This document shows positions 5,260-60,785 of a stretch of 64,000 nucleotides of DNA, piece after piece (position 1 is the stretch's first letter; every line of letters starts with the position of its first letter). Source of the stretch: Acidobacteriota bacterium (GTDB lineage Bacteria; Acidobacteriota; Blastocatellia; Chloracidobacteriales; JADJPF01). The notes below the pieces were generated by a model. That model searched no databases. It was not told where the DNA came from and saw only the letters and a list, made by a program, of their open reading frames with translations. Made by a program: the position numbers and the translations under genes. Location: positions 1 through 64,000 of the forward strand of contig JACQZQ010000094.1 of NCBI GenBank assembly GCA_016213785.1. Direction: 5' to 3'.

Positions 5260-5293
5260 AAGGACACGAAGAAGTTAACTTCTTCGTGTCCTT
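5260..5293 (-). terminator. Strong hairpin terminator (perfect 34-base palindrome)
   Basis: AAGGACACGAAGAAGTT (5260-5276) is followed directly by its exact reverse complement (5277-5293). Read on the minus strand, the hairpin lies just after the stop of the large redox gene and is followed by TTATAATTTT. This fits an intrinsic terminator of the redox operon. Confidence 0.75.
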
Positions 5294-5308: not shown

Positions 5309-8300
5309 TTATTTTGTTGGTTTAGCATCTTTAGCGCCTTCTTTAGGAGCGTCTTTTTTCTTATCCCAACCAGTATATTTAATACCGATTTTTTCTAAGA
5401 AACCTTTAGGTGCTTCACTACCAATCATAGCAAACACAAAATCATTAGGAATAGTTCCTATGACTTGTTCACCACGAATCTTCATTAAAGTAACTTCTTT
5501 TTCTTTAATTTCCTTTAAGCCAGCGCCAAAGTAAGCTTTCATTCTGCCTTTATCTATACAATAGTAAACCCACATCTTGTTTTCTAGAGTCAAGTCTTTT
5601 GGGAAGTCAGAACGAACAACTAAAGAAACTTCATTACCACCTTCTGGAAAGATTACAGTCCCATCATCTTGACGCTTACCTGTTAAGTCTACAGCAGCCT
5701 CTACCGCAGAGTTACCTGCACCAACTACAACAATCTTCTTACCTTTGAAATCAGCAGGATCTTGTAAGCGGTTAAGGATCTTTTGGTCATGCTCTTTTTC
5801 GCCAGTTACGCCAAGTTTACGAGGAGCCGCCGCAGTACCCAAAGCAAGGATAACTTTGCGAACTTTATAGCCAGTTTGATTCTTGACAGTCTTAACTATA
5901 AAGATTCCATCTTGTGGTACAACTTCGCTAACGCCTTCAAATTCATTTATTTTGATATTGAATTTTTGTACTGCTTCATCCCACCAACCTAGCATTTTTT
6001 CTTTGAGATCTCCTCCGCCTTCTAAACGAACAGCACCTAGAGGGGGATCACTAGGATTAAACGGGTTAAAGGCTACATATTTACCAGCAGGATATTTATC
6101 TGCAATGGTTGCATATTTACGGCCTTGTTCTAGTGCAATATAGCTAAGACCAAGCTCAGCAGCGCGTGCTGTTGCTGAAATACCGCCAGGGCCTATACCA
6201 ATTATTGCAACGTCTATATCTGCTCCAGCTTTACCTTCTGCTTTTATCTTTTCTGCAATTTTATCTACAGCCACACGGCCTTCTTTAATTGCATTACGAA
6301 TAAGTGGTACACCAGAAACATCACCTACTAAATAGACTCCATTAACATGCTCTGTTTCAAAGCCTTCTCCAGCCCCTTTACGAAGTGGTTTAGGAGCTTC
6401 ACGAATGTTTTTCTTAGTGTTAATAAGTACACAAGATTGAGGTGCGGTTGGACAAGCAAGCTGACAACCCGTATCTTCCATACATTGTTCAAAGTTAACT
6501 ACAATTGCATGGTGTTCTTGGTCATCAAATCCAAGAACGTCTTGAGGGCAGGCTAAAATACATCCATGACAACCTATACAAGTCTCGACATTAATAATAG
6601 GGTGTGGCACTGGTCGAGAGCGGGAAGATTTTTCAGCACTAGCTTTTTGAGCTGGAGATTCCCATTTTTGAGCATATTTGATACTACTTGCATCCCAAGC
6701 TTTTTTATTAGAAAGGTCTATTAATTGGCCTTTAAGTTTTTCTTGTACCTGACGGCGGCGAAGAGTATCGACTCCTAAGAAACCTAAGATAGTTAAAGGA
6801 ACAATACTAAAGAAAATTAACCAGCCAGAGAAAGACATTCCACCAAATCTAGCTGCAAAAGATGTCCAATTCCAAGATCTACCACCACGAAAAACGCTAT
6901 CGGCAGTATAGACTTCTAAAGTCTTTTTGGCATCAATCTTTTTACCAACAGCAGGTCTTAGCATTACAGCTTTAAGCTCTTTACTTTCACCATGTTGTGG
7001 GTGACAAGAATTGCAGTCAAGACCATTTTTAACTGCTAATTTGTCAAGCATCTCTTTTGCTTCTTTGGATTGTTTATTGGAAATATTTACAAACTGTACG
7101 CCATGACAAACTGCGCATTTGTTGCGATCAATATTTTTAGCCAGTTCAGGAGTGTCTAAAGAACCATGACAGTCATTGCAACGGGCACGACCAGCTTCGC
7201 GACCACTTAAGTGAACGTAATGGAATTTACTAGACGGTGTTAAAACATCATCTGTTGGAAGAGCCTTTTTCATATATTCATTCATAGGATCTTTCCAAGT
7301 CCATTCTCCACTATCGCTTATAGGATAGCCAAAGTTACCACCATGAGGTTCTGTAAGTTTTTTACCAGCAACAGTTTTAGCTTTAGGGTGTTTAGGGTCA
7401 GCCGAATGGCAATCAACGCACATACTACGAGCCACAGTTGCAGGGCTAAAAGCCTTACCTTTATGGTCAGTATGACAGTCCATACAACTTATTTTGGCTT
7501 TATCGTGGGCATCAATAACATTTGGATTAAAGTGTGATGTCTGGTGGCAGCTTTTACACTTTTGCTCCATAGGGGTTACAGCGGAGTGACAGCTAGCACA
7601 ATTACCACCAACAGAAGAGTTAGAAGCAAGTAGAGGTTTAGAATTTGGTAAAAGTTGTGCCCGATTAAACTCATTAGCCTCATGAGCGGCAGCTAGTGGG
7701 CCTGGAGAGAGAAAACCATCATAGGTTAAAGATAATGCAGCAGCAACCACAGTGATAATTATACCTAATGTGCCTAAAAAGCCACGAGGCCAGGGGCGTA
7801 CTAAGTCTGTAGAGGGCAACCAATTAAATTGTTTTTTACCTAAGTGAAGGTTAAATTTCTCATACTCAGGATCGGGTTTATTTGGGCGTAAAAGAGAAAT
7901 ATCAGCCATTTTTTGCTCGCCGCCTGTTTCTGCTAGCTTGCGTCTATCCCAGAAAGCATCCATAGTTTGTTGGAATTTTTGTTGCTCATCTTGTGGCAGA
8001 GCCATAATTGAGCTAAGAAGTCCAGTCATACCACGTTGCAAGCGAGCAGCCCCTAGAAGCTGTGTTGCACTTTGTTTTGATACTGCTTTACTAGGAGAAG
8101 GTGTAGGAGCACCTGGTTTTGCTCCAGGAGCACCTGGCATTGATATCCCAAGCTTTTTTAACATCTCTGGGTCAAGCATTTTAGTTTTACCACTAGCTAT
8201 GGCTTCTAATGGCCCACCTAGGATTTGTGTTCCACGATTATTTGCTGATACGGAGTCAATTTGTTTTTCTACCTCTAAAGTGAGTGATCCATCATCTGGA

Positions 8301-8596
8301 TCCATTTGTGGTTTAAGCAAGAAAACCCCAATTTGAATAGCATCACTATCTTCTAGTTGTACGGTTTCAATTAATGCTCCATTAACTATAGTGCCGTTAG
8401 AAGTAGATAGATTTTTGATCCAATAAGCGCCATCAATTTTACATATACCTGCATGGGTACGAGATACTGCTGGGTGGTTAAGCAGTACATCATTACCTAG
8501 TGCAGACCCAATGGTCAGACTATCGCTTTCGATTACTAAATCATCGTTGTCTAAGTCTGTTCTCTTGATGACAAATTTCGTTGATTCTGTACTCAT
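5309..8596 (-). CDS. FHA - seven-haem cytochrome c - ferredoxin - flavoprotein fusion
   Basis: About 1095 residues (numbering here from a TTG four codons upstream). Residues 10-100 are an FHA phosphothreonine-binding domain (IGSALGND, SRTHA, NGT). A Pro-rich linker leads to a membrane helix at 275-297. Seven CxxCH haem motifs follow between 337 and 536 (CASCH, CKSCH, CMDCH, CVDCH, CNDCH, CAVCH, CNSCH). A second helix (594-613) with RRR after it returns the chain to the cytoplasm. Cys-rich Fe-S motifs lie at 677-726 (CIGCHGCILACP, then CMEDTGCQLACP), then a thioredoxin-reductase-like FAD/NAD(P) module (GIGPGGISA, VVGAGNSAVEA). The predicted path is NAD(P)H, FAD, Fe-S, periplasmic haems, or the reverse. 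ATG 8596 has AGGAG upstream. It is second in an operon after the cNMP/cytochrome b gene. Substrate unknown. Confidence 0.88.
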   Translation of the reverse strand: MSTESTKFVIKRTDLDNDDLVIESDSLTIGSALGNDVLLNHPAVSRTHAGICKIDGAYWIKNLSTSNGTIVNGALIETVQLEDSDAIQIGVFLLKPQMDPDDGSLTLEVEKQIDSVSANNRGTQILGGPLEAIASGKTKMLDPEMLKKLGISMPGAPGAKPGAPTPSPSKAVSKQSATQLLGAARLQRGMTGLLSSIMALPQDEQQKFQQTMDAFWDRRKLAETGGEQKMADISLLRPNKPDPEYEKFNLHLGKKQFNWLPSTDLVRPWPRGFLGTLGIIITVVAAALSLTYDGFLSPGPLAAAHEANEFNRAQLLPNSKPLLASNSSVGGNCASCHSAVTPMEQKCKSCHQTSHFNPNVIDAHDKAKISCMDCHTDHKGKAFSPATVARSMCVDCHSADPKHPKAKTVAGKKLTEPHGGNFGYPISDSGEWTWKDPMNEYMKKALPTDDVLTPSSKFHYVHLSGREAGRARCNDCHGSLDTPELAKNIDRNKCAVCHGVQFVNISNKQSKEAKEMLDKLAVKNGLDCNSCHPQHGESKELKAVMLRPAVGKKIDAKKTLEVYTADSVFRGGRSWNWTSFAARFGGMSFSGWLIFFSIVPLTILGFLGVDTLRRRQVQEKLKGQLIDLSNKKAWDASSIKYAQKWESPAQKASAEKSSRSRPVPHPIINVETCIGCHGCILACPQDVLGFDDQEHHAIVVNFEQCMEDTGCQLACPTAPQSCVLINTKKNIREAPKPLRKGAGEGFETEHVNGVYLVGDVSGVPLIRNAIKEGRVAVDKIAEKIKAEGKAGADIDVAIIGIGPGGISATARAAELGLSYIALEQGRKYATIADKYPAGKYVAFNPFNPSDPPLGAVRLEGGGDLKEKMLGWWDEAVQKFNIKINEFEGVSEVVPQDGIFIVKTVKNQTGYKVRKVILALGTAAAPRKLGVTGEKEHDQKILNRLQDPADFKGKKIVVVGAGNSAVEAAVDLTGKRQDDGTVIFPEGGNEVSLVVRSDFPKDLTLENKMWVYYCIDKGRMKAYFGAGLKEIKEKEVTLMKIRGEQVIGTIPNDFVFAMIGSEAPKGFLEKIGIKYTGWDKKKDAPKEGAKDAKPTK

Positions 8597-8669
8597 AGCT
8601 CTCCTCAACTTTTAAGCTAAAATACTTAGCTTGAATAAAGATTAACACCAAGATTTATTTAATATTTAA

Positions 8670-11240
8670 TTAGTTACGCCACAGATAGTAGGTTACCTGA
8701 ATAATGTGTATGAGCAAGAGAGCTAGCATTATAGATGTAAAAATAACATGTGGAGGTAACCAAAGTTTTAATGCACGATGCAGATATACAAGAGCATCTA
8801 CTCTACGCACTGTTGCAGCTGCTTTAGCCAGTTTAATAAAAGCATCTTTTTCTGATTGATCTTTTATTTTACTTGCTTCCCCTTGAAATTCTTTTTGGGT
8901 AGCAGCTAATAACTCTTCTACTGATTCTTTCTTAAGATATTGACGTAGTAGATAAGGTAAGGAAGTAATAGTATCTAAAACAACATCACGCCCTTTAAGA
9001 AATCCATTCCTAAACTCTGCTTCACGGTTTTGTTCTTTTGCTTTATTTTGGCAAGTTGCTGTAATATCAGCTATTTCTTGGTATAGCTCTTCACGGCGAC
9101 GTTGTAGGTCTTCTATTAAAAGAGGCTCGCCTTCAATCTGTGTTAATGTTCTAGGGCCTAACCAATAAATAAGAATACCAAATAGACCTGTAAGGATTAC
9201 TAGGTCAAAAGAAATCATTAGAGATGCTGTTAAATAACCACCTAAGCTAGTACCACCATGTAATAGTAGTAATACTCCGGCAATAACTCCAGCATAAGTA
9301 TGGCTAAGCATCCAATAGCGAAGCGAGCCACTACGTTTTAACCACATTTGTCGTCTCATAGGATAGGCCATAACTACAACTATTCCTAAGAGTCCTACTA
9401 AACCTGTTATCCAGCGGAAATTAAACCAGTTAGTGGTAAGAAGTGGTGTTCCAAGACCATACTGGACAATTCCAGCCATAGTTAAACCACATAAGAATAG
9501 AGTAAATATAATCCCAATAACATGAGCAATTTGTTTACCAGTGTCTTTATAAGATCCTTTACGTACAGTTGCTTGAGCGTTTTTATTAAAAGCAACTCCT
9601 TTAATATTAGAAATTTCTGAGAAATATTCTGTTGGGCTAACACGCATACAAGCGCCTGTTGGACAGCTTTCTACACAATTATATCTATGGTCTTTATGGA
9701 TTTTAACCCCATTTTTATCAACAGGATTAATTGCTGTTCCATTACAGAGGTTACATTTTACTGCTACTAAATCCTCTTCACCCGTTACTGGGCTTGGTTT
9801 AGTGTCAAAAGCTAGTCCTAGCATTTCAAAAACATTAGCTTTTGCTTCTGCTGTAGCGCCTTTAGCACCTGCTTTAGCATCCTTTGCAGGAGCGGCTTTA
9901 GCCGCAGCAGGAGCACCAGGTTTTCTTAAGTCTTTACGTAGTACTAATGAAATGGCATTATAGGGACATTGAGTGGCACAATCTCCACAGCCAATACATG
10001 TAGCAGGATTAATATCAACTTGTCCGCCTTGAAAACGGGCGATTGCTCCAGTAGGACAACCAGTCATACATTCAGGATCTTTGCAATGTAGGCAAACCGA
10101 AGGTGCAAGAATGCTTTGATCCAATTTATGGCTAACTTCTTTAGGTCTAAATAGATGGATTCCTCTGCGAGTTAATCTTGCTTGACCATGTATTTCGTGG
10201 CAAGCCAAAGAGCAATTACCACATCTTACACATAAATCCATATCCATTACTAAAAGGTTAGTTGCATCAGCAAGACCTTTATCTAAAATACGATCTTGTG
10301 CACTTTTAGCAGGTTTAGCAAAAGCTAGTTGTTTTTCGGGTTGTAGCGGTGTTCCAGTACTACTAAAGGGTAATAATTCTGTTTTTAGACTTTCCATTAA
10401 TTGTGGATAAGCCATTAGTTTCTTAAATGGAACTTCTAATACTTCTGTACGGCTAAGAACAGTGGCTTTATAAGGCCATTTAGCTCCACGCTCGGTTAAA
10501 GCATTTAAGCCTATACAGTATCCTGAGCCAATAAAATCGGCTGAATCGCCTGTTTTATCTGCTTCACAAGTTCGTTTAAGCCAACCATCTTTAACTATAA
10601 CAAGTCGATCTATTGGGCGGTTTTCTTGACAAGCAACGTGGCCTCGGGCAAGTACACGAAACTCTGAGATTTGAGCTAACTGTTTTTTAGCTTCTTCACC
10701 AATAGACAATATGCCTAGGGTAGAGTTACGTCCATTATTACGATAGGTTAAGTCGAGTGCAGCACCAAATTTCTTTAGCTTTCTTAACATACGTAAGGCG
10801 GGGCGTTGTACTTCAAGTACAGTGATACCTGTTTCATGGTGGGCTTTAATAGTAGCTGCACGTTGTACACCTGCTAAAACAGCCATTTCTCCAAAAGGAT
10901 TTCCATGTTTAACAGATGCAACAGGTTCTTTACCCTCTTTTACTGCTTTAACAAAAATTTCTGCTGAGCCTTCAACTACAATATAAAAAGTGTTAGTGTC
11001 CCAGTCTCCTTCACGAATTACTTCTGCTCCTGCTGGATACTTGAACATTCTAATATAGGGGCCTACTTTTTTACCTGGGCCATAATTACGGCCATAAATA
11101 GATACTTCTAAGTCAACTGCGTATTTATAACCATGTCCTGCTTCAAATTCCACTAGCTCTTCAATCGCTCCAATGCCTTTAATAGCTTGAATAATTGCAT
11201 GATGGTCTTGCACTTCTTGACGCTTTAGCTCTTTACTCAT
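8670..11240 (-). CDS. cNMP-binding - four-cluster ferredoxin - membrane cytochrome b-like fusion
   Basis: 856 residues. Two cyclic-nucleotide-binding domains come first (about 60-160 and 190-290). The first has an intact phosphate-binding cassette (FGEMAVLAG..RAAT); the second is degenerate. Residues 337-531 carry four Cys clusters in DmsB/HybA-like order (CVRCGNCSLAC, CLHCKDPECMTGC, CIGCGDCATQC, CNLC...CVESC) with an Ala/Lys-rich insert near 440-470. Membrane helices follow at about 570-700, with His pairs (LSHTYAG, LLLLHGG), then a coiled cytoplasmic insert and a last His-bearing helix (HRALKLWLPPHV, LLIHIIQ). These His could bind b haems or quinone. It is first in the operon, 73 bases ahead of the FHA/cytochrome gene, and is probably its membrane partner with cAMP- or cGMP-controlled activity. 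Confidence 0.87.
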   Translation of the reverse strand: MSKELKRQEVQDHHAIIQAIKGIGAIEELVEFEAGHGYKYAVDLEVSIYGRNYGPGKKVGPYIRMFKYPAGAEVIREGDWDTNTFYIVVEGSAEIFVKAVKEGKEPVASVKHGNPFGEMAVLAGVQRAATIKAHHETGITVLEVQRPALRMLRKLKKFGAALDLTYRNNGRNSTLGILSIGEEAKKQLAQISEFRVLARGHVACQENRPIDRLVIVKDGWLKRTCEADKTGDSADFIGSGYCIGLNALTERGAKWPYKATVLSRTEVLEVPFKKLMAYPQLMESLKTELLPFSSTGTPLQPEKQLAFAKPAKSAQDRILDKGLADATNLLVMDMDLCVRCGNCSLACHEIHGQARLTRRGIHLFRPKEVSHKLDQSILAPSVCLHCKDPECMTGCPTGAIARFQGGQVDINPATCIGCGDCATQCPYNAISLVLRKDLRKPGAPAAAKAAPAKDAKAGAKGATAEAKANVFEMLGLAFDTKPSPVTGEEDLVAVKCNLCNGTAINPVDKNGVKIHKDHRYNCVESCPTGACMRVSPTEYFSEISNIKGVAFNKNAQATVRKGSYKDTGKQIAHVIGIIFTLFLCGLTMAGIVQYGLGTPLLTTNWFNFRWITGLVGLLGIVVVMAYPMRRQMWLKRSGSLRYWMLSHTYAGVIAGVLLLLHGGTSLGGYLTASLMISFDLVILTGLFGILIYWLGPRTLTQIEGEPLLIEDLQRRREELYQEIADITATCQNKAKEQNREAEFRNGFLKGRDVVLDTITSLPYLLRQYLKKESVEELLAATQKEFQGEASKIKDQSEKDAFIKLAKAAATVRRVDALVYLHRALKLWLPPHVIFTSIMLALLLIHIIQVTYYLWRN

Positions 11241-11249
11241 AGAGACCTC

Positions 11250-11280
11250 ATTATAAAGCTTTAAATTTAATGATTTTCAA
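11250..11280 (-). promoter_or_regulatory. Candidate promoter of the redox operon
   Basis: On the minus strand TTGAAA (11275-11280) and a perfect TATAAT (11250-11255) are 19 bases apart. The ATG of the cNMP gene starts nine bases after the -10, so the leader would be only a few bases. A GAGG lies between the -10 and the ATG and would be mostly outside the transcript. Confidence 0.4.
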
Positions 11281-20912: not shown

Positions 20913-22220
20913 TTACTTAACATCTAATTCTAGGTTATCATAGCCAGATGTTATATTTGTTTGCTGGCGGGGTTGTTTAGCTTTAGGGGTTTCAGCTATT
21001 GTGGATGAAAAAGCTTGTTGTAATAGTCGTGCTTTTTCTTGTTCAATTGGGTGAGGATGAATTGCTGAAATAGGAGCATTTGAGCTTGAAGCCCCTGAAA
21101 TTACAGTACTTTGTTTAACAGGGAAATAAGAGAGAGTTTGTGCAAAAGGTTTCATAAACTTTTCAAAATTCTCAATTATATAAGCCTGTTTGGCTGAATC
21201 ACCACCGGTTTGCAAAATCTCTACAGTCTTTTTTAACTGATCTAGTTCAGATTGAGCACGGCCTTGAAAGCTTGTAGCTTGGGTTTTAGCTATAAGGATA
21301 GTTTTTTCTTTCTCTGCTTGTACTGGAATAATCATTTCTGCCCGAAATTTTGCTTGTAACATTTCTACTTTACGTTTTTCTGCTTCGATTTGGGCTTTAA
21401 TACCTGCTACTTTAGCTTCTGCATCACGAGTAGCTTTTTCTACTCCAATTGCGGCACGTTGTCTTTCTGAAGCAATATTAACACTGGTTTGTGCAGCTAA
21501 AGATTCTTTTTCATTATTAAATTTACGTACCATAACCTCAGCACGTTGAGCTTCACTTGCTTCTTTAGAAGCAGCAGTACTAAGAGCTTGGGCTTCACGC
21601 GCTTGAGTTTCTGCATTAGCTGCTTGAATACGTTTAAGTAAAGCTATGTAGAGTTCTGGTTCTGTAACCCCGTCTAAACGATGGTCTTCTACATCAGCAA
21701 TATTCATTGCCGTAATTTCTAAACCAATTCCCTCTAAGTCAGTTTTACAGACTCTTATCATGTTTTGTACTAATATATCTTTATCTGTCATAACTTGTTC
21801 AGGGGTCATTGTAGCAATGGAGTCTCGTAAATGGCCTTCAATAATAGAGTTAGCTATATAGCGTAATTCCTCCCATCCATGAGTCATTGTAAGAATTCTA
21901 CGTATTGCATTTTGAATACCACTAGGGGAAGAGGCTATAGTAAAACTTACTGTAGCAACAACTGTAAGAGGTACAACGCCCTCAGCAATAGCAGATTCTA
22001 CTGTTACTGTAGTAGTTTGTGGCCGCAAATCCATTTTATAGAAAGCATGAATTAATGGGAAAACAAAAACTCGACCGCCACGAATAGTTGAAAGACCTTC
22101 TTGACCTTTTCCCGCGATGACTGCTAATTCATTAGCTCCAACAATTTTCATTTTACTAATTACTTGGTAAAGAATTGATGCTCCGATTAATCCTATTAGT
22201 GCAACAAAAAATCCACCCAT
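20913..22220 (-). CDS. Flotillin-like SPFH-domain membrane protein
   Basis: An N-terminal membrane hairpin (FFVALIGLIGASILYQVI) is followed by an SPFH/band 7 domain (residues 30-190). A long Ala/Glu-rich coiled coil comes next (about 205-330, with EAQALSTAASKEASEAQRAE and AEKRKVEMLQAKFRAEM). This is the flotillin layout found in bacterial membrane microdomain scaffolds such as YuaG/FloT. The C-terminus is a Pro/Ser-rich tail. It is the last gene of a three-gene operon with another SPFH protein ten bases upstream and an NfeD-type protein. GGAG precedes the ATG. Confidence 0.88.
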   Translation of the reverse strand: MGGFFVALIGLIGASILYQVISKMKIVGANELAVIAGKGQEGLSTIRGGRVFVFPLIHAFYKMDLRPQTTTVTVESAIAEGVVPLTVVATVSFTIASSPSGIQNAIRRILTMTHGWEELRYIANSIIEGHLRDSIATMTPEQVMTDKDILVQNMIRVCKTDLEGIGLEITAMNIADVEDHRLDGVTEPELYIALLKRIQAANAETQAREAQALSTAASKEASEAQRAEVMVRKFNNEKESLAAQTSVNIASERQRAAIGVEKATRDAEAKVAGIKAQIEAEKRKVEMLQAKFRAEMIIPVQAEKEKTILIAKTQATSFQGRAQSELDQLKKTVEILQTGGDSAKQAYIIENFEKFMKPFAQTLSYFPVKQSTVISGASSSNAPISAIHPHPIEQEKARLLQQAFSSTIAETPKAKQPRQQTNITSGYDNLELDVK

Positions 22221-22230
22221 AATTTTCTCC

Positions 22231-23652
22231 TTATTTTGACCCTTCAGAAGATTTACTTGATAAAGCCATTAAGTCACGAACGCTAATGCCAAAACTAGCT
22301 TCAAAATGTTTTAAGAAGTCTGCTAAAGCCTCAGGCCCGCGATTAACAACGCCATTAAAGCCTTTTTCTGGATCCATAATAATTAAATTGTCTACAGACA
22401 TTCCTTGAGTATTTTCTTGGTAGGATTGGAATAATTTATCTAGATGCTGTTGAACAAAAATGGCAATTTTAGCGGCATCTCCATACTGAGAAATTAGCTC
22501 TACTTTTTGCTTTAATAAATCATTTTGAAGTTCTTGAAAAATCTTTATGGCTTCACCTTCACCCTCAGCACGGATTTCTGCTACACGCTTTTTAGCTTCA
22601 GCCTCTAGAGTTACTTGGGAGATATTTTTAAGTTTTTGTAGTTCAATCATTGCTTCTTGAACTAGTTTTTCACCCTCGCTCATTGCTTTAACTATTGCAC
22701 TATCGGCTTCAAGTCGATTGCGTTCTATAGATGCCTCACATTCACGACGAAAGACTTCTAATTGTTGCTGGGAAACTAGGACTTTTTCATTTGCCTGGTT
22801 TATTGCAATCATTTGACGGCGAGATGAATCAGACTCAGCTTGTTCGGCTCTAGCACGAAGTCTTGCTTCTTGGATTTCTACTTCTTGGCGCTTTTGTGCA
22901 AGCGTTTTACTTGCTAAATTAGCTATATAATTTGAAGTATCCCAAATCTTTTGTAGCGATACAGAAACCACTCTCATTCCAAAAGTGCTTAAATCTTGGT
23001 TACTATCTTTAAGAAGCTCTTTACGAAAATGGGCACGTTCACCATCATTTTGTGTTGCTAAAGCGGTATTACTAGAACGTACAAGCATACTACTAGCATT
23101 ACTTTCATCTGAGCGGTCTTCATCCATCCCTATTGCTTGTAAAGGAGTAGTTTTATTTAGCGCACCACGAACGTTTCCAACCATTGTTTGTTGCATTTGT
23201 TCTTGGATTTCTCGTCGAGATTTGCCTATTAAACGCTCAACCGCAGAATAAACTAAAGCTTCATCTTTATCATCAACACATACACAAGCTGTAGCGTCTG
23301 CTCCAACAGTTATACCATTAGCAGAGTTAACACCCTCAATCTTAACATTAATTGGTAAAATTCCTAGGTCTAGGGTTTGAGCACTTTGAAAATAGGGAAC
23401 TATGTAAGTCCACCCGCCTTTTTGAATGCGAAACCCGTATTCTTTGCCATTAATAGTAGTTTGAGCACCAATAATTACTAGAACTTGATTAGGTGGACAA
23501 ACTCGGATTATAGTTTGAAGTAGACTAACTACTGTAAAAAATAGTACTGCTGCCGCTGCTGCTCCAAAAATAAAAAAAGAATCTAGCTGAAACATAGCTA
23601 GCAATGGAAAAACACTTACGAAACCTGTCTTTAGTGCTAAGACCAAAATCAT
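22231..23652 (-). CDS. Second SPFH/flotillin-like membrane protein
   Basis: 473 residues: an N-terminal membrane helix (about 22-50), an SPFH domain (50-250, with the strand GGWTYIVPYFQSAQTLDLG) and a coiled coil (about 255-390). It is paralogous to the following flotillin and could form mixed oligomers with it. Compared with that protein the SPFH domain has an insertion (EDRSDESNASSMLVRSSNTA) and the C-terminus lacks the Pro-rich tail. AGGAG lies six bases before the ATG. The gap to the next gene is only ten bases. Confidence 0.82.
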   Translation of the reverse strand: MILVLALKTGFVSVFPLLAMFQLDSFFIFGAAAAAVLFFTVVSLLQTIIRVCPPNQVLVIIGAQTTINGKEYGFRIQKGGWTYIVPYFQSAQTLDLGILPINVKIEGVNSANGITVGADATACVCVDDKDEALVYSAVERLIGKSRREIQEQMQQTMVGNVRGALNKTTPLQAIGMDEDRSDESNASSMLVRSSNTALATQNDGERAHFRKELLKDSNQDLSTFGMRVVSVSLQKIWDTSNYIANLASKTLAQKRQEVEIQEARLRARAEQAESDSSRRQMIAINQANEKVLVSQQQLEVFRRECEASIERNRLEADSAIVKAMSEGEKLVQEAMIELQKLKNISQVTLEAEAKKRVAEIRAEGEGEAIKIFQELQNDLLKQKVELISQYGDAAKIAIFVQQHLDKLFQSYQENTQGMSVDNLIIMDPEKGFNGVVNRGPEALADFLKHFEASFGISVRDLMALSSKSSEGSK

Positions 23653-23747
23653 AGTTTTCTCCTAACTGATATGATAAAAAGCCTATTTTAATTTTCTATA
23701 AATAGTTTCCCCTATTTTTCTGTTAGTTATGGGGACAAATAACTAAT

Positions 23748-24458
23748 TTATTTTTGTAGTTGTGGGGTCTTTTTTCTTTGAGACATTCTACTTATAGGAA
23801 AGTCATTAGATGCAGGACGAACATAAACACACTCGTCTGTTACACGTACAATATCAACTTCACTATCTTTAGAAAAAGAATCTAAAGGGTTTTCAGCCAA
23901 AGCATAACGCTCAGCTACAGATTGTCCAGTAATAATTCTAACCTTACCCATATTACCATTAGTAATAGGCACTATTACTTCAGCTTTACCTAAGAAAAGA
24001 TCCTCCATATGCACAGTAGAATCTAAGTCCTTTTGTTGTAAACGGAAAAAAAATAACCCCATAGATGTACTAGCTAGACCGCCTAGCATAGACCAGGCAA
24101 GGGCACCTAAAAGCCCTGAGCCGCTAAATTCAGCTAAAAGCCCCATAGGGCCAAACCCAGCACAAAAATAAACAAACATCCTTATATATCTTAAAACTGA
24201 AAGTAAAGGGATATGGTGATTGTGGCTATTGTGGTTATTAGTTTGATGGTCACTTTGATGATTAGCCTGATGGTCACTTTGGTGGGCTAAGTTGTGATCC
24301 ATTTGTGAAATATCTTCTGGCGTTTGGCTTTGAGAGTTGCTATCAGAATGACTAACCCCAAAACTATGTGCAAAGACTCCAAGCAAATCTAATAACATTA
24401 CTCCTACACCAAATATGGTTGTTACAAGATAAATAAGATGTAAATAGCTTTCAAACAT
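23748..24458 (-). CDS. NfeD/YuaF-like membrane protein with His-rich loop
   Basis: The first membrane helix (YLHLIYLVTTIFGVGVMLLDL) is followed by a hydrophilic loop with a near-repeat HQSDHQANHQSDHQTN and further His (NHNSHNHH), about residues 57-82. Two more helices follow (VYFCAGFGPMGLLAEFSG, GALAWSMLGGLASTSMGLFFF). The C-terminal 90 residues (GKAEVIVPITNGNMGKVRI) look like the OB-fold of NfeD/YuaF proteins, which accompany flotillins. It is the first gene of the flotillin operon. The His-rich loop could bind metal ions such as Zn, Ni or Cu; that is inference. Confidence 0.75.
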   Translation of the reverse strand: MFESYLHLIYLVTTIFGVGVMLLDLLGVFAHSFGVSHSDSNSQSQTPEDISQMDHNLAHQSDHQANHQSDHQTNNHNSHNHHIPLLSVLRYIRMFVYFCAGFGPMGLLAEFSGSGLLGALAWSMLGGLASTSMGLFFFRLQQKDLDSTVHMEDLFLGKAEVIVPITNGNMGKVRIITGQSVAERYALAENPLDSFSKDSEVDIVRVTDECVYVRPASNDFPISRMSQRKKTPQLQK

Positions 24459-35738: not shown

Positions 35739-37166
35739 ATGGCAGAAGCTAAAATTGGTCTTATTGGCTTAGCAGTAATGGGTGAAAACTTAGCACTTAA
35801 CATTGAACGCAATGGATTTCCTATTGCTGTTTGGAATCGTGATCCTAAGAAAGTAAACACCCTACTAGAAACTAGAGCCAAAGGCAAGAATTTTATTGGG
35901 TGTACATCAGTAGAAGAGTTTGTTAAGTCTATTGAAAGACCCCGTAAGATTGTTATGCTAGTAAAAGCAGGTGAAGCAGTGGATTGGACCGTATCACAGC
36001 TTAAACCCTATTTAGAAAAGGGAGATATCCTCATTGACGGCGGTAACTCCTGGTATCAAGACACAGAAAGACGTACCCGTGACCTAAATGCAGAAGGACT
36101 TCACTTTATTGGTTCTGGTGTCTCTGGTGGTGAAGAGGGAGCACTTTGGGGGCCATCCCTAATGCCAGGTGGTGATAAAGAAGCTTATGCAAGTCTACAA
36201 CCAATCTGGGAAGCTATTGCTGCTAAAGTTGATGATGGTTCATGTGTTACCTACATTGGCCCAGAGGGTTCTGGACATTTTGTAAAAATGGTTCATAACG
36301 GTATTGAATACGGCGATATGCAATTAATTGCTGAAGCTTATGATATGATGCGCCGTTGTTTAGGAATGTCTGCCAGTGAAATTAGTGATGTTTTTACAGA
36401 ATGGAATAAAGGCGTTCTTAGCTCTTTTTTAATTGAAATTACTGGCGAAATCTTTAAGTATGTTGATGAAGAAACAGGTAAGCCGCTAGTAGATTTAATT
36501 ATGGATAAAGCAGGCCAAAAGGGTACAGGTCTTTGGACTTCTAAAGTAGCTCTTGACCTTGGTGTAGCTATTCCTACTATTGAATCCGCTTTAGCTGCTC
36601 GTATGATGTCTGGGCTTAAAACCCAACGTATTGAAGCTGCTGGTGCTCTTTCTGGGCCAAAAGATGCTTCTTATTCTGGAGATAAGGCCGAATTTGTTGC
36701 TGCTATTCACGATGCCCTTTATGCCTCAAAAATTTGTTCTTATGCCCAAGGTATGGCATTAATTAAAACTGCTTCAGATAATAACCATTGGGATCTTAAT
36801 ATGGGTGAAATCAGCCGTATTTGGAAAGGTGGTTGTATTATTCGCGCCCAATTCTTAGATAAGATTAAACAAGCTTATCATCGTCGTGCAGACTTACCAA
36901 ACTTACTCCTAGACCCAGATTTCCGCGATGCAGTTAGCAGTACTCAAGCAGGTTGGCGTAAGGCTGTTACTACGGCAATGAACCTAGGTGTTCCTTGCTT
37001 GGCTATGGCTTCTAGTTTAGCCTATTATGATAGCTATCGCTCTGCAAACCTACCACAAAACTTAACTCAAGCTCAACGTGACTTCTTTGGTGCTCATACT
37101 TATGAACGTGTTGATAAACCTGAAGCTGGCTTTATGCACACCGAGTGGAGGAAAAAAGCTGAATAG
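35739..37166 (+). CDS. gnd: 6-phosphogluconate dehydrogenase (decarboxylating)
   Basis: Makes ribulose 5-phosphate, CO2 and NADPH. The NADP-binding N-terminus GLAVMGENLALNIERNGF, the SGVSGGEEGALWGPSLMPGG loop and the catalytic segment GHFVKMVHNGIEYGDMQ with the conserved Lys are all present. 475 residues match the long (E. coli-like) form. AGGAGG precedes the ATG. It is first of the gnd-zwf-opcA-pgl group and is separated from zwf by a terminator-like hairpin. Confidence 0.97.
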   Translation: MAEAKIGLIGLAVMGENLALNIERNGFPIAVWNRDPKKVNTLLETRAKGKNFIGCTSVEEFVKSIERPRKIVMLVKAGEAVDWTVSQLKPYLEKGDILIDGGNSWYQDTERRTRDLNAEGLHFIGSGVSGGEEGALWGPSLMPGGDKEAYASLQPIWEAIAAKVDDGSCVTYIGPEGSGHFVKMVHNGIEYGDMQLIAEAYDMMRRCLGMSASEISDVFTEWNKGVLSSFLIEITGEIFKYVDEETGKPLVDLIMDKAGQKGTGLWTSKVALDLGVAIPTIESALAARMMSGLKTQRIEAAGALSGPKDASYSGDKAEFVAAIHDALYASKICSYAQGMALIKTASDNNHWDLNMGEISRIWKGGCIIRAQFLDKIKQAYHRRADLPNLLLDPDFRDAVSSTQAGWRKAVTTAMNLGVPCLAMASSLAYYDSYRSANLPQNLTQAQRDFFGAHTYERVDKPEAGFMHTEWRKKAE

Positions 37167-37301
37167 TTAAAAAATTTGGCTTTATAAATTTGCTTATTAT
37201 TACCGCTAATTTCTCATCAGAAGTGATTTAAGAAAATAGACCTAAGCATGTCTTAAAAAGGCTTATTTCCTTTAAAATTTTAATATAAGGAGAGCGCTTT
37301 T

Positions 37302-37325
37302 TCCCAAAAGCTTTTTGGGATTTTT
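37302..37325 (+). terminator. Terminator-like hairpin just before zwf
   Basis: TCCCAAAA, a GCT loop and TTTTGGGA form an 8-base stem (37302-37320, with one bulged T), followed by TTTTT (37321-37325). The zwf ATG is 14 bases later. A TAATAT and an AAGGAG lie just upstream. It may end gnd transcripts or act as an attenuator in the zwf leader. Confidence 0.55.
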
Positions 37326-37339
37326 GTGCCAAATTTCTT

Positions 37340-38917
37340 ATGACATCTGAAATGGAAAATCCTTTACGAGAAGAAATGCGCATGGAACGCAAAGCTCCTC
37401 CCTGTGCTATAGTAATCTTTGGCGCTTCTGGAGACTTAAATAAACGCAAATTAACCCCAGCCCTCTATAGTCTATATCAACAACATTTACTTTCTAACGG
37501 GTTTGCTATGGTAGGCTTTACCCGAACTAAAATGGATCATCAAACTTTTCGCACACTTATGACTGAGACTACTAAAGAGTTTGCCGAAGGCGGTATAGGT
37601 GATACTGCTGTTTGGGAAAGTTTTTCCCAAAAACTTTTTTATGTCTCAGGCGACCCAAATGATCCTAAAGCTTATCAAGAACTAAAAGAATTACTTAATA
37701 ATTTAGACCGCGAGCAAGGCACAGCTTGCAATAGAGTATTTTATCTTTCTACTCCTCCAGAACTTTATACACCCATTGTAAAACAATTAGGTGCGGCAGG
37801 AATGAACCGCGCAAGTACTCCTGATAGTTGGGTACGTATTATTATTGAAAAACCTTTTGGCTATGACCTACCTTCAGCACTTAAACTAAATGGTGATGTT
37901 GGTCAAATATTTGAAGAAGACCAAGTTTATCGTATTGATCATTATTTAGGTAAAGAAACTGTACAAAATATTTTAGTTTTCCGTTTTGCTAATGGTATTT
38001 TTGAACCTATTTGGAACCGAAATTTTATTGACCATGTACAAATTACCGCCGCTGAATCAGTAGGTGCAGGTGATCGTGTAGGTTATTATGAAGCCTCAGG
38101 TGCTTTAAGAGATATGATTCAAAATCACTTAATGCAGGTTTTTTCTTTAGTAGCAATGGAGCCGCCTGTTTCACTAGATGCTAATGCTATTCGTGATGAA
38201 AAACAAAAAGTGATGATGGCTGTTTATCCTTTTACTCACCAGGAAGTCCCACGTTTTGCTGTTCGTGGACAATATGGAGCAGGAGCTTCTAATGGTAAAC
38301 CTGTTTTAGGATTTAGAGAAGAAATCAAAGCTTTTAATGCTAAAAGTAAAGGTGGCCGTCATTATAATGAAGAATCTGATGCTCCAACTTATGCAATGGT
38401 GCGATTAATGGTTAATAACTGGCGTTGGGCTGGAGTGCCTTTTTTTATTCGTTCTGGTAAACGTATGCCTAAGCGTGTTTCAGAAGTAGCAATCCAATTT
38501 AAGCGTGTTCCACATCTTTTATTTAAGCAAACTAAGGCTGATCGTATTGAACCAAACTCGCTAGTTATTCGCATCCAACCAGATGAAGGTATTACTCTAA
38601 AATTTGGCGCTAAAATGCCTGGTCAAGCCGTCCATATTCGTGAAGTAAACATGGATTTCCAATACGGTCAACAATTTGGCCGACATTCTCCTGAAGCATA
38701 TGAACGTCTTTTATTAGATTGTATGTTAGGTGATCCTACACTTTTTGCTCGTCGTGATATGGTAGAAAAGGGCTGGGAATTGCTTGGCCCAGTACTTGAT
38801 ATTTGGAGTGAACAAAAAGCTAATTTCCCAAATTATGAGGCTGGTAGCTGGGGGCCAATTGAAGCAGATGAATTTATTGCTCATGGTGCTCCTCATCGCC
38901 GTTGGCGTAAACCATAG
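37340..38917 (+). CDS. zwf: Glucose-6-phosphate 1-dehydrogenase
   Basis: First enzyme of the oxidative pentose phosphate pathway, making 6-phosphogluconolactone and NADPH. The nucleotide-binding motif GASGDLNKRKLTPALY and the active-site RIDHYLGKETVQN are intact, as is the C-terminal part. 525 residues, normal to slightly long. No Shine-Dalgarno is seen at the first ATG; internal Met at codons 5, 13 and 15 are alternatives. It is followed by opcA and pgl with strong ribosome binding sites. Confidence 0.96.
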   Translation: MTSEMENPLREEMRMERKAPPCAIVIFGASGDLNKRKLTPALYSLYQQHLLSNGFAMVGFTRTKMDHQTFRTLMTETTKEFAEGGIGDTAVWESFSQKLFYVSGDPNDPKAYQELKELLNNLDREQGTACNRVFYLSTPPELYTPIVKQLGAAGMNRASTPDSWVRIIIEKPFGYDLPSALKLNGDVGQIFEEDQVYRIDHYLGKETVQNILVFRFANGIFEPIWNRNFIDHVQITAAESVGAGDRVGYYEASGALRDMIQNHLMQVFSLVAMEPPVSLDANAIRDEKQKVMMAVYPFTHQEVPRFAVRGQYGAGASNGKPVLGFREEIKAFNAKSKGGRHYNEESDAPTYAMVRLMVNNWRWAGVPFFIRSGKRMPKRVSEVAIQFKRVPHLLFKQTKADRIEPNSLVIRIQPDEGITLKFGAKMPGQAVHIREVNMDFQYGQQFGRHSPEAYERLLLDCMLGDPTLFARRDMVEKGWELLGPVLDIWSEQKANFPNYEAGSWGPIEADEFIAHGAPHRRWRKP

Positions 38918-38991
38918 CTAATAGTCCCTTAAGTTCTTCTAGTTACCTAAATGGCTAAAAACTTAAAGGTTGATATTGTTAAGGAGTTTTT

Positions 38992-40152
38992 ATGATAACA
39001 AGCGATGCAGCAAATACAGAAATAATTGACCAAATAATGAAGCCTTTTGATTTACGTACTATCGAAAAAGACCTTAGAGAGCTTTGGAAACAAAAAGAGG
39101 ATGCTGCGGAAGAAAACAAAGTAACTAGTACTCGCGCTTGTGTAAGTAATCTTCTTATTTATGAAGACCAAGAAGATGAAATAAACACTTTAACTGAAAC
39201 TATTATTGATGTTACTAAACATCATCCATGCCGTGTAATAGTAATGTCTTCTAAGGCTAATTCTTTAGAGGACAAGCTAGAAGCAGGAGTTTCTGCTATA
39301 TGTAGTTTTACTATAAGCCAAGGTAAACAAATTTGTTCAGAACAAATTATGGTTAAAGCGGAAGGAAGTGCTGTTAAAAGGCTTTCTGCTAGTGTAATGC
39401 CGCTACTGGTTTCAGATTTACCAGTAAATCTTTGGTGGCGAGGAGTTCCAGTTGATACACAACCCTTTAGTGGCTTATTAGGTTGTGCTAATAGAGTAAT
39501 TCTAGATTCTAGTTATTCCACTCGCCCTACTGCATTTCTTTCTGTCCTTGCTACTTTAGCTAGACAACGCTTTAAGGAAGTTGCTTTTAGTGATATTAAT
39601 TGGTCACGTTTAACTCAGTTACGCTCACATATAGCAGGACTATTTGATGTCCCAGATCTACTTGCCTATCTTAAAGACTTAAGCAAAGTAACTATAGAAT
39701 TTCCTTCTTCTACAACTGATCAAGACCTGCCAGCACCTCAAGCAATGCTTTTAGTCGGTTGGTTTATGAGCCGTCTTAATTGGGGGCTTACTGAAGATAT
39801 TTTAAGGTCTAGAACTGGGGCAACAATCTTAAAATTTTTACGCGGAGAACATGAAATTACTGTAGAAATGACTCCATCAACTAAACTTGAAAATCAAGAC
39901 CTAAAGCTTACTCTTACTATGGCTGATAATACAGGCTGGCAAGAAGCACGTATAGTTATAATGCGTAATTATGCTTATAACGCTATTGAGACTAAGCTTG
40001 AGACTCCAACTATTTGTTGGCTTAAAGACGTTGCTCGTTATGAAATGCCTACAGAATCAGAACTAATTTTAAGCGAGCTAGAAATTTTAGGACATGATGT
40101 TATTTATGAGAATGCTTTAGAATGCACTGCACAAATTATAGAGAAAATGTAA
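38992..40152 (+). CDS. opcA: Glucose-6-phosphate dehydrogenase assembly protein OpcA
   Basis: OpcA activates or assembles Zwf in Cyanobacteria and Actinobacteria. Family features seen: ACVSNLLIYEDQ, HPCRVIVM, PLLVSDLPVNLWWRG and SRLNWGLTE. 386 residues, cytoplasmic. AAGGAG lies five bases upstream of the ATG. Its place directly between zwf and pgl supports the call. Redox control of Zwf, as in Cyanobacteria, is possible but not shown. Confidence 0.92.
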   Translation: MITSDAANTEIIDQIMKPFDLRTIEKDLRELWKQKEDAAEENKVTSTRACVSNLLIYEDQEDEINTLTETIIDVTKHHPCRVIVMSSKANSLEDKLEAGVSAICSFTISQGKQICSEQIMVKAEGSAVKRLSASVMPLLVSDLPVNLWWRGVPVDTQPFSGLLGCANRVILDSSYSTRPTAFLSVLATLARQRFKEVAFSDINWSRLTQLRSHIAGLFDVPDLLAYLKDLSKVTIEFPSSTTDQDLPAPQAMLLVGWFMSRLNWGLTEDILRSRTGATILKFLRGEHEITVEMTPSTKLENQDLKLTLTMADNTGWQEARIVIMRNYAYNAIETKLETPTICWLKDVARYEMPTESELILSELEILGHDVIYENALECTAQIIEKM

Positions 40153-40189
40153 GTTAATCCATCTAAATTTAGGTTAGGAGGAAGCATTT

Positions 40190-40933
40190 ATGACAAGAGA
40201 AGTTATTGTTTGCCATAGCCAAGAGGAAATTTTTACCAAATCAGCAGATATGTTTGTTGCCTTAGCTACTCAATCCATTGCTGCAAGAGGGCAATTTACT
40301 ATAGCACTTTCTGGCGGCTCTACTCCTAAGGGAATGTACTTGCTGCTAGCTAGTGATGCTTATAGAGACAGAGTTGATTGGAATAAAGTACAACTTTTTT
40401 GGGGTGATGAACGCTCTGTTTCACCAGATAATGATCAAAGCAATTACCGAATGGCTAATCAAGCAATGATTAGTAAAGTTCCTATTCCAGCAGAAAATGT
40501 TCATAGAATGAAAGCTGAATCAGAAGATATAGAATTAGCAGCAAAAGATTATGAAAATATACTAAAACAAGTTTTAGGTTTTGCTGATGGTGAACAGCCT
40601 AAATTTGACCTAATACTTTTAGGAATGGGTGATGATGGGCATACAGCATCGCTTTTTCCAGGCACAAAAGCTTTAGCAGAAAAAGAGCGAATAGTAGTAG
40701 TAAATTGGGTAGAAAAATTTAATACCAACCGAATGACTTTTACTGCACCAGCCATTAACAATGCTCGCAACATTGTTTTTATGGCCGCAGGAGCAAATAA
40801 ACTCCAGCCATTAAAAGAAGTGTTGGTTGGAGAAAAAAATCCTGAACTTTACCCCTCACAACTTGTTCAACCTACTGATGGTAAGCTAATTTGGTTAGTT
40901 GATGAAGCTGCAACTGGCGGGGAAAAATATTAA
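40190..40933 (+). CDS. pgl: 6-phosphogluconolactonase
   Basis: Hydrolyses 6-phosphogluconolactone to 6-phosphogluconate. The DevB/SOL-type motifs are present: LSGGSTPKGMY (about residue 43), LFWGDERSVSPD, SNYRMA and LLGMGDDGHTASLFPG. 247 residues is the usual size. AGGAGG precedes the ATG. It is the fourth gene of the pentose phosphate group. Confidence 0.96.
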   Translation: MTREVIVCHSQEEIFTKSADMFVALATQSIAARGQFTIALSGGSTPKGMYLLLASDAYRDRVDWNKVQLFWGDERSVSPDNDQSNYRMANQAMISKVPIPAENVHRMKAESEDIELAAKDYENILKQVLGFADGEQPKFDLILLGMGDDGHTASLFPGTKALAEKERIVVVNWVEKFNTNRMTFTAPAINNARNIVFMAAGANKLQPLKEVLVGEKNPELYPSQLVQPTDGKLIWLVDEAATGGEKY

Positions 40934-60430: not shown

Positions 60431-60785
60431 AGTAGCCTCAATGTTTAGTTATAAATTTAAGTTTAGTCTCTTTTCTAAGCGGAAAAAGAATAAAAAATCC
60501 CCAAAATTTTTACATTTTTTCAGGGAATATTTTAATAGTTCTCGCTTACCTCAAGAAAGAGTTTTAATGTTTTAATATAAATATTTAAGCTAAATATAAT
60601 TAAAGTAAAAACATTGATAGGAATTGTAATAAAAATAGTATATTTATTGTAAATATTACATTTAATAAAAATATAAATACTTAATTTTAAGAGATCTTTA
60701 AATACATTCCTACAGCAGTTTACAAAAACTGGTATTATTTATAGTTCAAACCTCTAAATTGCGTTGGTGAGGAGTGTTAATAGCA
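60431..60785. other. Intergenic region between divergent DUF4384-type genes
   Basis: 355 bases of AT-rich sequence with many short A and T runs. TTTACA at 60720-60725 might be a -35 for the kinase gene, but no good -10 pairs with it. No reading frame or RNA gene is supported. Confidence 0.4.

Follow-up and report, generated by a model that had tools for sequence, protein, structure and literature searches.

The extracellular electron transfer systems known to us begin with cytochromes that oxidise quinol, and their control is exerted mainly through expression. CbcL, MtrH, MtoC and ImcH are quinol-fed inner-membrane cytochromes in which a membrane b-type or NapC-like domain and 7-9 c-type haems feed a periplasmic/outer-membrane conduit; as described, none includes a ferredoxin, flavin or sensory module (PMC6295460). 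Transmembrane complexes of a different kind are DsrMKJOP, Hmc and Nhc, where an Fe-S protein, a dihaem cytochrome b and a multihaem cytochrome c span the membrane (PMC8076601). A 2026 cave metagenome study counts Acidobacteriota among the organisms that have porin-cytochrome complexes (PMC13264449), and most multihaem cytochromes of wastewater Acidobacteriota have no assigned role (PMC8100337). A 64,000-nucleotide stretch of an Acidobacteriota genome (the window) carries two adjacent genes, encoding P0002 and P0001, which would likewise feed a conduit and span the membrane. Yet, the pair has ferredoxin, flavin and sensory modules, all three missing in the CbcL-type cytochromes, and its b-type and c-type domains reside on two proteins, whereas CbcL and ImcH join the c-type and membrane domains in one. 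DsrMKJOP, Hmc and Nhc have neither the sensory domains nor the NAD(P)H module. Among NCBIfam profiles, DsrO (NF045797) matches the P0002 ferredoxin domain best, with 65.3 bits against a cut-off of 200, and no NrfD family match was found by Pfam in P0001 or P0002 at E<=1. P0002 and P0001 probably join in one inner-membrane NAD(P)H:cytochrome c oxidoreductase, which would deliver electrons to a porin-cytochrome conduit; a pair of cNMP domains is proposed to set its rate.

Table 1. Features of the locus, by position in the window (P0001 residues are counted from the TTG at 8608)
Feature	Position	Strand	Basis or measure
Intrinsic terminator hairpin, end of the two-gene operon	5260..5293	-	z -8.1
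P0001, FHA - TM - heptahaem c - TM - ferredoxin - permuted flavoprotein	5309..8596	-	1095 aa from ATG
P0001 FAD/NAD(P)-binding core, YpdA/TrxR/FNR-like	5369..6217	-	Pfam, Foldseek, VIA
P0001 C-terminal FAD segment (GVYLVGDVSGVPLIRNAIKEG), moved ahead of the Rossmann core	6218..6391	-	circular permutation, alignment + hhalign
P0001 ferredoxin module, 8 invariant Cys, two predicted [4Fe-4S]	6404..6607	-	profile + alignment
P0001 membrane helix 2, residues 595-613	6770..6826	-	hydrophobicity
P0001 seven CxxCH haem motifs, residues 337-540	6989..7600	-	alignment
P0001 membrane helix 1, residues 276-294	7727..7783	-	hydrophobicity
P0001 FHA domain, G-S-x..SRTH..NGT, Ser for Arg of the usual GR motif	8327..8515	-	Pfam + alignment
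P0002, cNMP x2 - 4 x [4Fe-4S] - cytochrome-b-like membrane protein	8670..11240	-	856 aa
P0002 membrane domain, about 5 helices, predicted dihaem b	8673..9542	-	model + alignment + hhalign
P0002 ferredoxin domain, 16 Cys, four predicted [4Fe-4S], DsrO/NrfC-like	9642..10256	-	profiles + alignment
P0002 second cNMP fold, residues about 184-295, degenerate pocket	10356..10691	-	profile matches + alignment
P0002 first cNMP-binding domain, residues 64-152, canonical phosphate-binding cassette FGEMAVLAGVQRAAT	10785..11051	-	PF00027

The ORF of P0002 is intact, and cNMP_binding (in two stretches) and several Fer4 families exceed their Pfam gathering scores, PF00027 reaching 80.7 bits against a threshold of 27.5. 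The first cNMP pocket is kept among homologues (G117 in 61 of 61, E118 and R127 in 60 of 61). The fold of the second domain is evident, as residues 162-299 of the model match the CNBD of HCN2 (3bpz; VIA Z 14.2), but its pocket lacks the Arg and is degenerate in the Blastocatellia alignment; of the two cNMP domains originally claimed both folds stand, and only the first pocket is canonical. Residues 184-295 are also matched by the NCBIfam profile of family 2B encapsulin shells, which contain cNMP-type domains as well. Four sets of four Cys are invariant across 61 homologues. In the membrane part, about five helices in the predicted model, the motif H-x13-H occurs twice (H647/H661, H831/H845), and these putative b-haem ligands are invariant in the same homologues, a few rows being gapped at the C-terminus. 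The domain is homologous to a free-standing cytochrome-b-like protein found elsewhere (hhalign P 99.7%, E 2.4e-26), and the four His are invariant in that comparison too. No match above the Pfam cut-off was found to quinol-type cytochrome b, b561 or HydC families, and no PDB relative by profile search; whole-model fold searches are dominated by the cNMP domains and uninformative on the membrane part, and confidence in the modelled Fe-S part is low. The predicted four Fe-S clusters and the His-bearing membrane helices agree with the original prediction.

P0001 is encoded by an intact ORF (5309-8608), whose start is more likely the ATG at 8596 (MSTESTK), directly after GAGGAG. FHA (32-94), Cytochrom_c3_2, Fer4_10 and Pyr_redox_2/3 (798-1080) exceed Pfam gathering scores. 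All seven CxxCH sit between the two hydrophobic helices, and each is kept in 49 of 49 homologues, which rules out chance occurrence. Exactly seven further His of the haem domain are invariant in the same 49, His309 just upstream included, the pattern expected for bis-His haems. An eighth CxxCH match, CIGCHGC, is a ferredoxin motif and not a haem site. The architecture anticipated for P0001, an FHA domain, two helices enclosing seven haem motifs, Fe-S Cys and a flavin/NAD(P) module, is confirmed. Its FHA domain had been regarded as a phosphothreonine reader: PF00498 scores 53 bits (threshold 20.7) and the core G, S, H and N residues are present, but in the window Ser replaces the phosphate-contacting Arg, found in 39 of 49 relatives.

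The flavin/NAD(P) module is present, but its circular permutation had been overlooked. The core has the same fold as 7a76, 7a7b, 2zbw and 3ab1 (Foldseek E 1e-20 for 7a76; VIA Z 20.2, rmsd 4.5, 262-263 aligned), a fold common to YpdA/TrxR-like ferredoxin-NADP+ reductases. In these enzymes the FAD Rossmann part comes first and the GD-motif segment is C-terminal, whereas in P0001 the order is permuted; the GD-motif segment precedes the core in 40 of the 40 sequences listed, and rotation of the profile raises the hhalign score from 356 to 427 and the coverage from 261 to 305 columns. Unlike the YpdA/TrxR-like reductases, the module is fused behind a 2x[4Fe-4S] module, and P0001 stays below the NCBIfam cut-off for YpdA (126.7 of 339.9). 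No description of a permuted TrxR-like flavoprotein was found in the open-access literature, and the P0001 module makes a usable structural oddity.

The haem gene lies directly downstream of the cNMP gene in all 59 Blastocatellia loci with room for it. At 11 of these the flavoprotein is fused, and at 33 it is encoded by a gene of its own next door; at 11 none was found in the vicinity, and 4 are undecidable. Where it is not nearby, the donor may differ. Seven loci in which ORF picking had missed the FHA gene were all recovered by tblastn. Recurrence in 59 loci rules out an assembly artefact or an accidental fusion, and the same adjacency in 2-contig genomes (L065-L067) refutes the view that assembly errors joined modules of separate proteins. 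Complexes of the P0002/P0001 type occur in 55 of 118 Blastocatellia genomes and in 14 of the 14 sampled genomes of the order of the window, those of Chloracidobacterium type included, and are conserved in many Acidobacteriota from soil, hot springs and groundwater. No third gene of the operon was found at the window locus. A contig scan with two short motifs found no P0002 architecture in other phyla, and outside Acidobacteriota it returned weak, ferredoxin-only matches in Planctomycetota, Verrucomicrobiota and Kiritimatiellia (L153-L157).

Outside Blastocatellia the same modules are arranged in other fusions, and different modules stand at the NAD(P)H entry. In other classes flavoprotein, two cNMP domains and Fe-S part form one protein, cytochrome b is free-standing, and FHA and 10 haems reside in another protein. 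Entry modules are of three kinds, a canonical FAD/NAD(P) enzyme, the permuted one, and a complex-I-like NuoEF/NuoG; the stem made of cNMP-Fe-S, dihaem-type cytochrome b and multihaem c is constant. At two loci (L079, L215) a NuoE-NuoF fusion adjoins a NuoG-N-like/cNMP/FeS protein, and the NADH module of Complex I (NuoEFG) would feed the same stem; no proton-pumping arm was seen there, and the window locus lacks NuoEFG. The cNMP domains are kept in every variant examined, with canonical pockets in FAD-type and NuoG-type relatives. Some variants (L079, L216, L217) have a haem protein without FHA; an apparent loss of FHA in second copies (L062, L064) was dismissed, as Pfam finds the domain. Invariable adjacency and recombination of the modules in other fusions indicate that the two genes belong together, as predicted, though "mirror-image design" was a loose wording. 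The complex may take electrons from the quinol pool or give them to it. A CbcL-like exchange of electrons between the b-haem domain and menaquinone, with the NAD(P)H module left to tune or bypass this route, is rather unlikely: the 11 loci with no flavoprotein nearby and the resemblance of dihaem b plus multihaem c to CbcL (PMC6295460) speak for it, but the swapped modules of other classes argue that a cytoplasmic nucleotide is the usual donor, and quinol-type cytochrome b families gave no match above the Pfam cut-off.

An outer half of the system is suggested by genome content. A gene for a 9-10-haem LVIVD protein occurs in 55 of 55 complex-bearing Blastocatellia genomes, against 5 of 63 others (Fisher 3e-28, the kinship of genomes being ignored), and within one genus the two are absent in parallel. 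The large LVIVD protein is usually encoded beside a putative barrel gene. In the window genome a separate contig (C24) hosts the 9-haem LVIVD gene together with barrel-like and HbpS-like genes; the adjoining gene, 707 aa long, has homologues ending in F or Y. A C-terminal F or Y is usual for outer-membrane barrels, and the 707-aa product may be one, a call which rests on the C-terminal aromatic, size and synteny. Inner complex and outer unit share one operon at three loci (L221, L077, L076), and one strand at two (L099, L148). The haem output could instead end in the periplasm, for example at a peroxidase, nitrite reductase or terminal oxidase, and the LVIVD/barrel link reflect shared ancestry of genome content. 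The location of the outer unit on another contig of the window genome fits this, but the parallel absence within a genus, the 55/55 against 5/63 distribution and the single-operon arrangements in distant genomes make it very improbable. The outer half resembles the porin-cytochrome "group 1" of the cave study, a putative identity drawn from size and arrangement; that text describes no inner-membrane complex, and makes no mention of cyclic nucleotide, FHA or LVIVD (PMC13264449). In the open-access literature no description was found of LVIVD with multihaem, or of the signal-domain inner half, while the outer half resembles that published group.

In the preferred reading, electrons would pass from NAD(P)H to FAD and two [4Fe-4S], all in the C-terminus of P0001, to the four [4Fe-4S] of P0002, across the membrane through its two b-type haems, to the seven bis-His c-haems of P0001 in the periplasm, then to periplasmic multihaem cytochromes, and finally to a barrel in the outer membrane together with an LVIVD protein of 9-10 haems at the surface. 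The electron shuttle originally proposed is supported by the cofactor layout, which links cytoplasmic NAD(P)H without a break to the haems in the periplasm; a likely partner, the outer-membrane multihaem/barrel unit, extends it beyond the periplasm or quinone pool. The complex would be a feeder of extracellular electron transfer that takes its electrons from the pool of NAD(P)H, either in place of quinol or in addition to it. Ligands are invariant and leave no spare coordination site, which suggests electron transfer, not catalysis. A role in redox sensing only, as a signal protein carrying no current, was set aside given about 15 predicted metal centres with invariant ligands (7 c-haems, 2 b-haems and 6 Fe-S clusters), for which it is difficult to account unless electrons flow. 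The direction of flow is not set by sequence, and we infer that it is outward. Inward flow, by which the conduit would oxidise Fe(II), reduced humics or sulfur compounds outside or in the periplasm, and the complex reduce NAD(P)+ or ferredoxin using the membrane potential, is improbable. Complex-bearing lineages are mostly described as heterotrophs, and NAD+ reduction from high-potential haems needs a driving force, and neither gene was found to encode a pump subunit. All modules are reversible in principle, and porin-cytochrome systems are known for both directions (PMC6295460), but only three porin-cytochrome MAGs of the cave study had carbon fixation (PMC13264449).

Outward flow from NAD(P)H might be regulated on the spot. 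The cNMP pair, directly beside the Fe-S domain, would respond to cAMP or a similar nucleotide by adjusting the rate, and FHA would probably dock a phosphorylated partner. The window genome has 7 matches to class III cyclase domains and 46 to FHA domains. Judging from domain content, it is plausible that cAMP or phosphoproteins gate the complex, and the built-in domains may switch electron flow on and off. Tentatively, cNMP binding near the Fe-S chain and docking of phosphoproteins by FHA could directly open and close the export of NAD(P)H electrons out of the cell. That cNMP and FHA are structural or localisation modules of a constitutive complex lacking a second-messenger gate is somewhat doubtful. 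The degenerate second cNMP domain and the window FHA devoid of Arg are in line with it, and the encapsulin 2B match exemplifies the cNMP fold in a structural protein; yet, the first-domain cassette is kept in 60-61 of 61 homologues and is canonical in FAD-type and NuoG-type relatives, and since its residues are not needed for a structural role, their conservation argues against a structural-only cNMP pair. The original statement that no characterised system has both sensor types agrees with searches of the open-access literature, which returned no description of the cNMP/FHA/multihaem combination.

The inner-membrane part of this system appears to use NAD(P)H without an intermediary and to have second-messenger and phosphoprotein modules built in. 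The swapping of modules shows how evolution has joined different kinds of NAD(P)H module to a single membrane stem. We know of no earlier case of second-messenger control inside an extracellular electron transfer complex, and a ligand-gated conduit, if real, would be the first post-translational control of this kind built into one. The presence of the complex in every sampled genome of the order of the window makes it open to experiment.

The two genes lie on contig C82 of a 6.4 Mb Acidobacteriota genome (132 contigs; class Blastocatellia, judging by its named relatives), are separated by ~75 bases, and are both preceded by plausible ribosome-binding sites (GAGGAG, GAGG). P0002 is composed of two cNMP domains, a 16-cysteine ferredoxin domain and a membrane domain. 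P0001 carries, in order, an FHA domain, a helix, a heptahaem domain, a second helix, an 8-cysteine ferredoxin module and a FAD/NAD(P) module. Since c-haem is assembled in the periplasm, the helix count would place the haems in this compartment, and the N-terminal FHA and C-terminal flavin in the cytoplasm, if both hydrophobic helices cross the membrane. A scan of GTDB genomes identified 72 relatives of P0002. Their contigs bear the labels Acidobacteria, Blastocatellia, Pyrinomonadaceae or Chloracidobacterium, with the sole exception of one labelled Actinomycetota. The latter (L083, JAAFHI010000008.1) is probably mislabelled in the public record: the MAG is titled Actinomycetota, yet the scaffold is named Acidobacteria and the sequence is a typical Blastocatellia locus. 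Named Chloracidobacterium MAGs (L086, L137) possess the pair too, and two genomes, G051 (L063, L064) and G063 (L061, L062), each host two diverged copies; FHA is present in the second copy of either genome, and cNMP in the single one that was checked for it. The FHA-haem gene is found directly 3' of the P0002 gene, on the same strand, in 59/59 loci with room downstream. The flavoprotein is fused in 11 of these, encoded by a separate neighbour in 33, not found nearby in 11 and undecidable in 4.

Coordinates of the gene pair and of other features
Feature	Sequence	Positions	Strand
P0002, first gene of pair	window	8670-11240	-
P0001, second gene of pair	window	5309-8596 (from ATG)	-
Strong hairpin terminator closing the pair	window	5260-5293	
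Two tandem flotillin/SPFH-like genes, small membrane protein	window	20913-24458	-
Apparent oxidative pentose phosphate run	window	35739-40933	+
Serine/threonine protein kinase-like gene	window	60774-62486	+
NuoE-NuoF fusion beside NuoG-N-like + cNMP + Fe-S protein	L079	9565-13370	-
NuoE-NuoF fusion beside NuoG-N-like + cNMP + Fe-S protein	L215	2554-6404	+
Paralogous permuted flavoprotein	L080 (contig C84)	9183-11498	-
FHA-GAF-cyclase and octahaem cytochrome genes	L175 (contig C42)	7377-9029 and 9101-10219	both -
Pyr_redox_2 + FHA + 2Fe-2S protein	L216	13939-16176	+
Multi-domain HbpS-like protein	L172	12458-14593	
Multi-domain HbpS-like protein	L073	14145-15815	
Multi-domain HbpS-like protein	L076	11401-13161	

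In 61 P0002 sequences all 16 Fe-S cysteines are invariant, as are H647 and H661, and H831 and H845 where aligned. The seven CxxCH motifs between the two helices of the FHA protein are all invariant in 49/49 FHA-haem proteins, and the haem region holds exactly seven other invariant histidines (309, 368, 382, 422, 463, 466 and 539, numbered from the TTG at 8608), which fits the need of seven bis-His haems. The P0001-type FAD/NAD(P) module is circularly permuted. In TrxR-like enzymes the GD-motif segment closing the FAD site is C-terminal; here it precedes the Rossmann core in all 40 sequences inspected. With the segment moved to the end, the profile-alignment score against canonical relatives rose from 356 (261 columns) to 427 (305 columns), and one BLAST alignment then spanned the whole domain. 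Structural matches of the modelled module to YpdA (Z 20.2) end at about residue 270 of 322-324, the exact point where the displaced segment would follow. The same genome encodes a paralogous permuted flavoprotein (771 aa) whose chain also includes membrane helices and a NapH/CcoG-like polyferredoxin.

In other Acidobacteriota the modules are fused differently, a classic sign of parts acting in one complex. Five loci (L075, L076, L077, L220, L221) combine a flavoprotein of canonical order with two cNMP domains and Fe-S in one protein; where neighbours are readable, cytochrome b is free-standing (~275-300 aa), and FHA plus 10 haems form a third protein. In hhalign the P0002 membrane domain matches the family of this free-standing cytochrome b (probability 99.7, E 2.4e-26), and its four histidines belong to the small set of invariant residues. 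At L079 and L215 a NuoE-NuoF fusion takes the place of the flavoprotein, together with a NuoG-N-like domain joined to cNMP and Fe-S: a complex-I NADH module attached to a cyclic-nucleotide-domain ferredoxin. All swapped entry modules handle NAD(P)H.

Many loci include 4-haem and 8-9-haem cytochromes, an HbpS-like protein, a barrel-like protein and a giant LVIVD protein (7-10 haems). L221, L077 and L076 each have six co-directional genes leading from the NAD(P)H module to the LVIVD protein (the L077 cytochrome b gene is not resolved in the ORF calls); at L099 and L148 the barrel-like, LVIVD and periplasmic cytochrome genes share one strand with the P0002/P0001 pair. In the window genome, contig C24 carries an LVIVD protein (1348 aa, 9 CxxCH), a predicted barrel (707 aa) and an HbpS-like gene. 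Among 118 Blastocatellia genomes the LVIVD protein occurs in 55/55 with the complex versus 5/63 without (Fisher 3e-28, not corrected for phylogeny), and the two are present or absent in step across one genus of Pyrinomonadaceae (g7). In a phylum sample of 247 genomes the figures are 22/23 and 4/224. Among these last four, closer inspection of G023 revealed a NuoG-type complex adjoining the LVIVD gene, and this genome was taken as complex-bearing in the statistical test of the phylum sample; in G172 and G237 the loci are at contig ends. Multi-domain HbpS-like (haem-degrading-like) proteins recur next to multihaem conduit genes.

Electrons would pass from NAD(P)H to FAD and two [4Fe-4S] clusters, then via four [4Fe-4S] clusters to two b-haems across the membrane, and from these to seven c-haems, periplasmic cytochromes and the outer-membrane multihaem unit. 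This predicted path and the pairing are well supported by sequence; complex formation, direction of flow and surface location of the outer unit are inferred. An apparent oxidative pentose phosphate run in the window (6PGDH, G6PDH, OpcA-like, 6-phosphogluconolactonase) looks like a candidate NADPH source. Two tandem flotillin/SPFH-like genes with a small membrane protein were also recognised there, like the run, by their sequence. The pair would work similarly to CbcL/ImcH-type feeders of porin-cytochrome conduits. In contrast to these, b- and c-type domains reside on separate proteins, there are additional modules (ferredoxin, flavin and sensor), and no part reaches the HydC/b561 family cut-off; the complex therefore falls outside the CbcL/ImcH families. 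Nor is it a member of DsrMKJOP/Hmc, as no NrfD subunit was found and the DsrO cut-off is missed. A group of large-decahaem/porin loci with ferredoxin-NADP+ reductase nearby (PMC13264449, June 2026) is probably the outer half of the complex, which backs the feeder reading, and reduces the novelty of that half.

Gating of electron flow by ligands is the weakest step of this reading. Both cNMP domains are present, but only the first stands as a conserved cassette (G, E and R kept in 60-61 of 61 sequences), the second being degenerate and devoid of the pocket Arg. Gating is favoured by this cassette adjoining the Fe-S domain, by the retention of cNMP domains in all cNMP-Fe-S proteins of the reshuffled variants, and by seven class III cyclase domain matches in the genome; it is disfavoured by the degenerate second domain and by the altered FHA of the window. 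In the 49 proteins the FHA core residues are kept to differing degrees (G 49/49, R 39/49, S 48, H 39, N 40); Arg is Ser in the window's group, and no FHA was detected in the L079, L216 and L217 proteins with 10 haems. L216 encodes a 745-aa protein with Pyr_redox_2, FHA and 2Fe-2S (Fer2) domains. The window genome has 46 FHA domain matches, apparently many for one genome, and a second signal/redox pairing, in which an octahaem c-type cytochrome gene is immediately followed by one for an FHA-GAF-adenylate/guanylate cyclase. A kinase-like gene in the window may be a source of phosphothreonine for FHA domains. Searches of open-access text found no earlier description of an inner half that bears cNMP as well as FHA domains; ligand gating, if real, may represent a categorically new feature.
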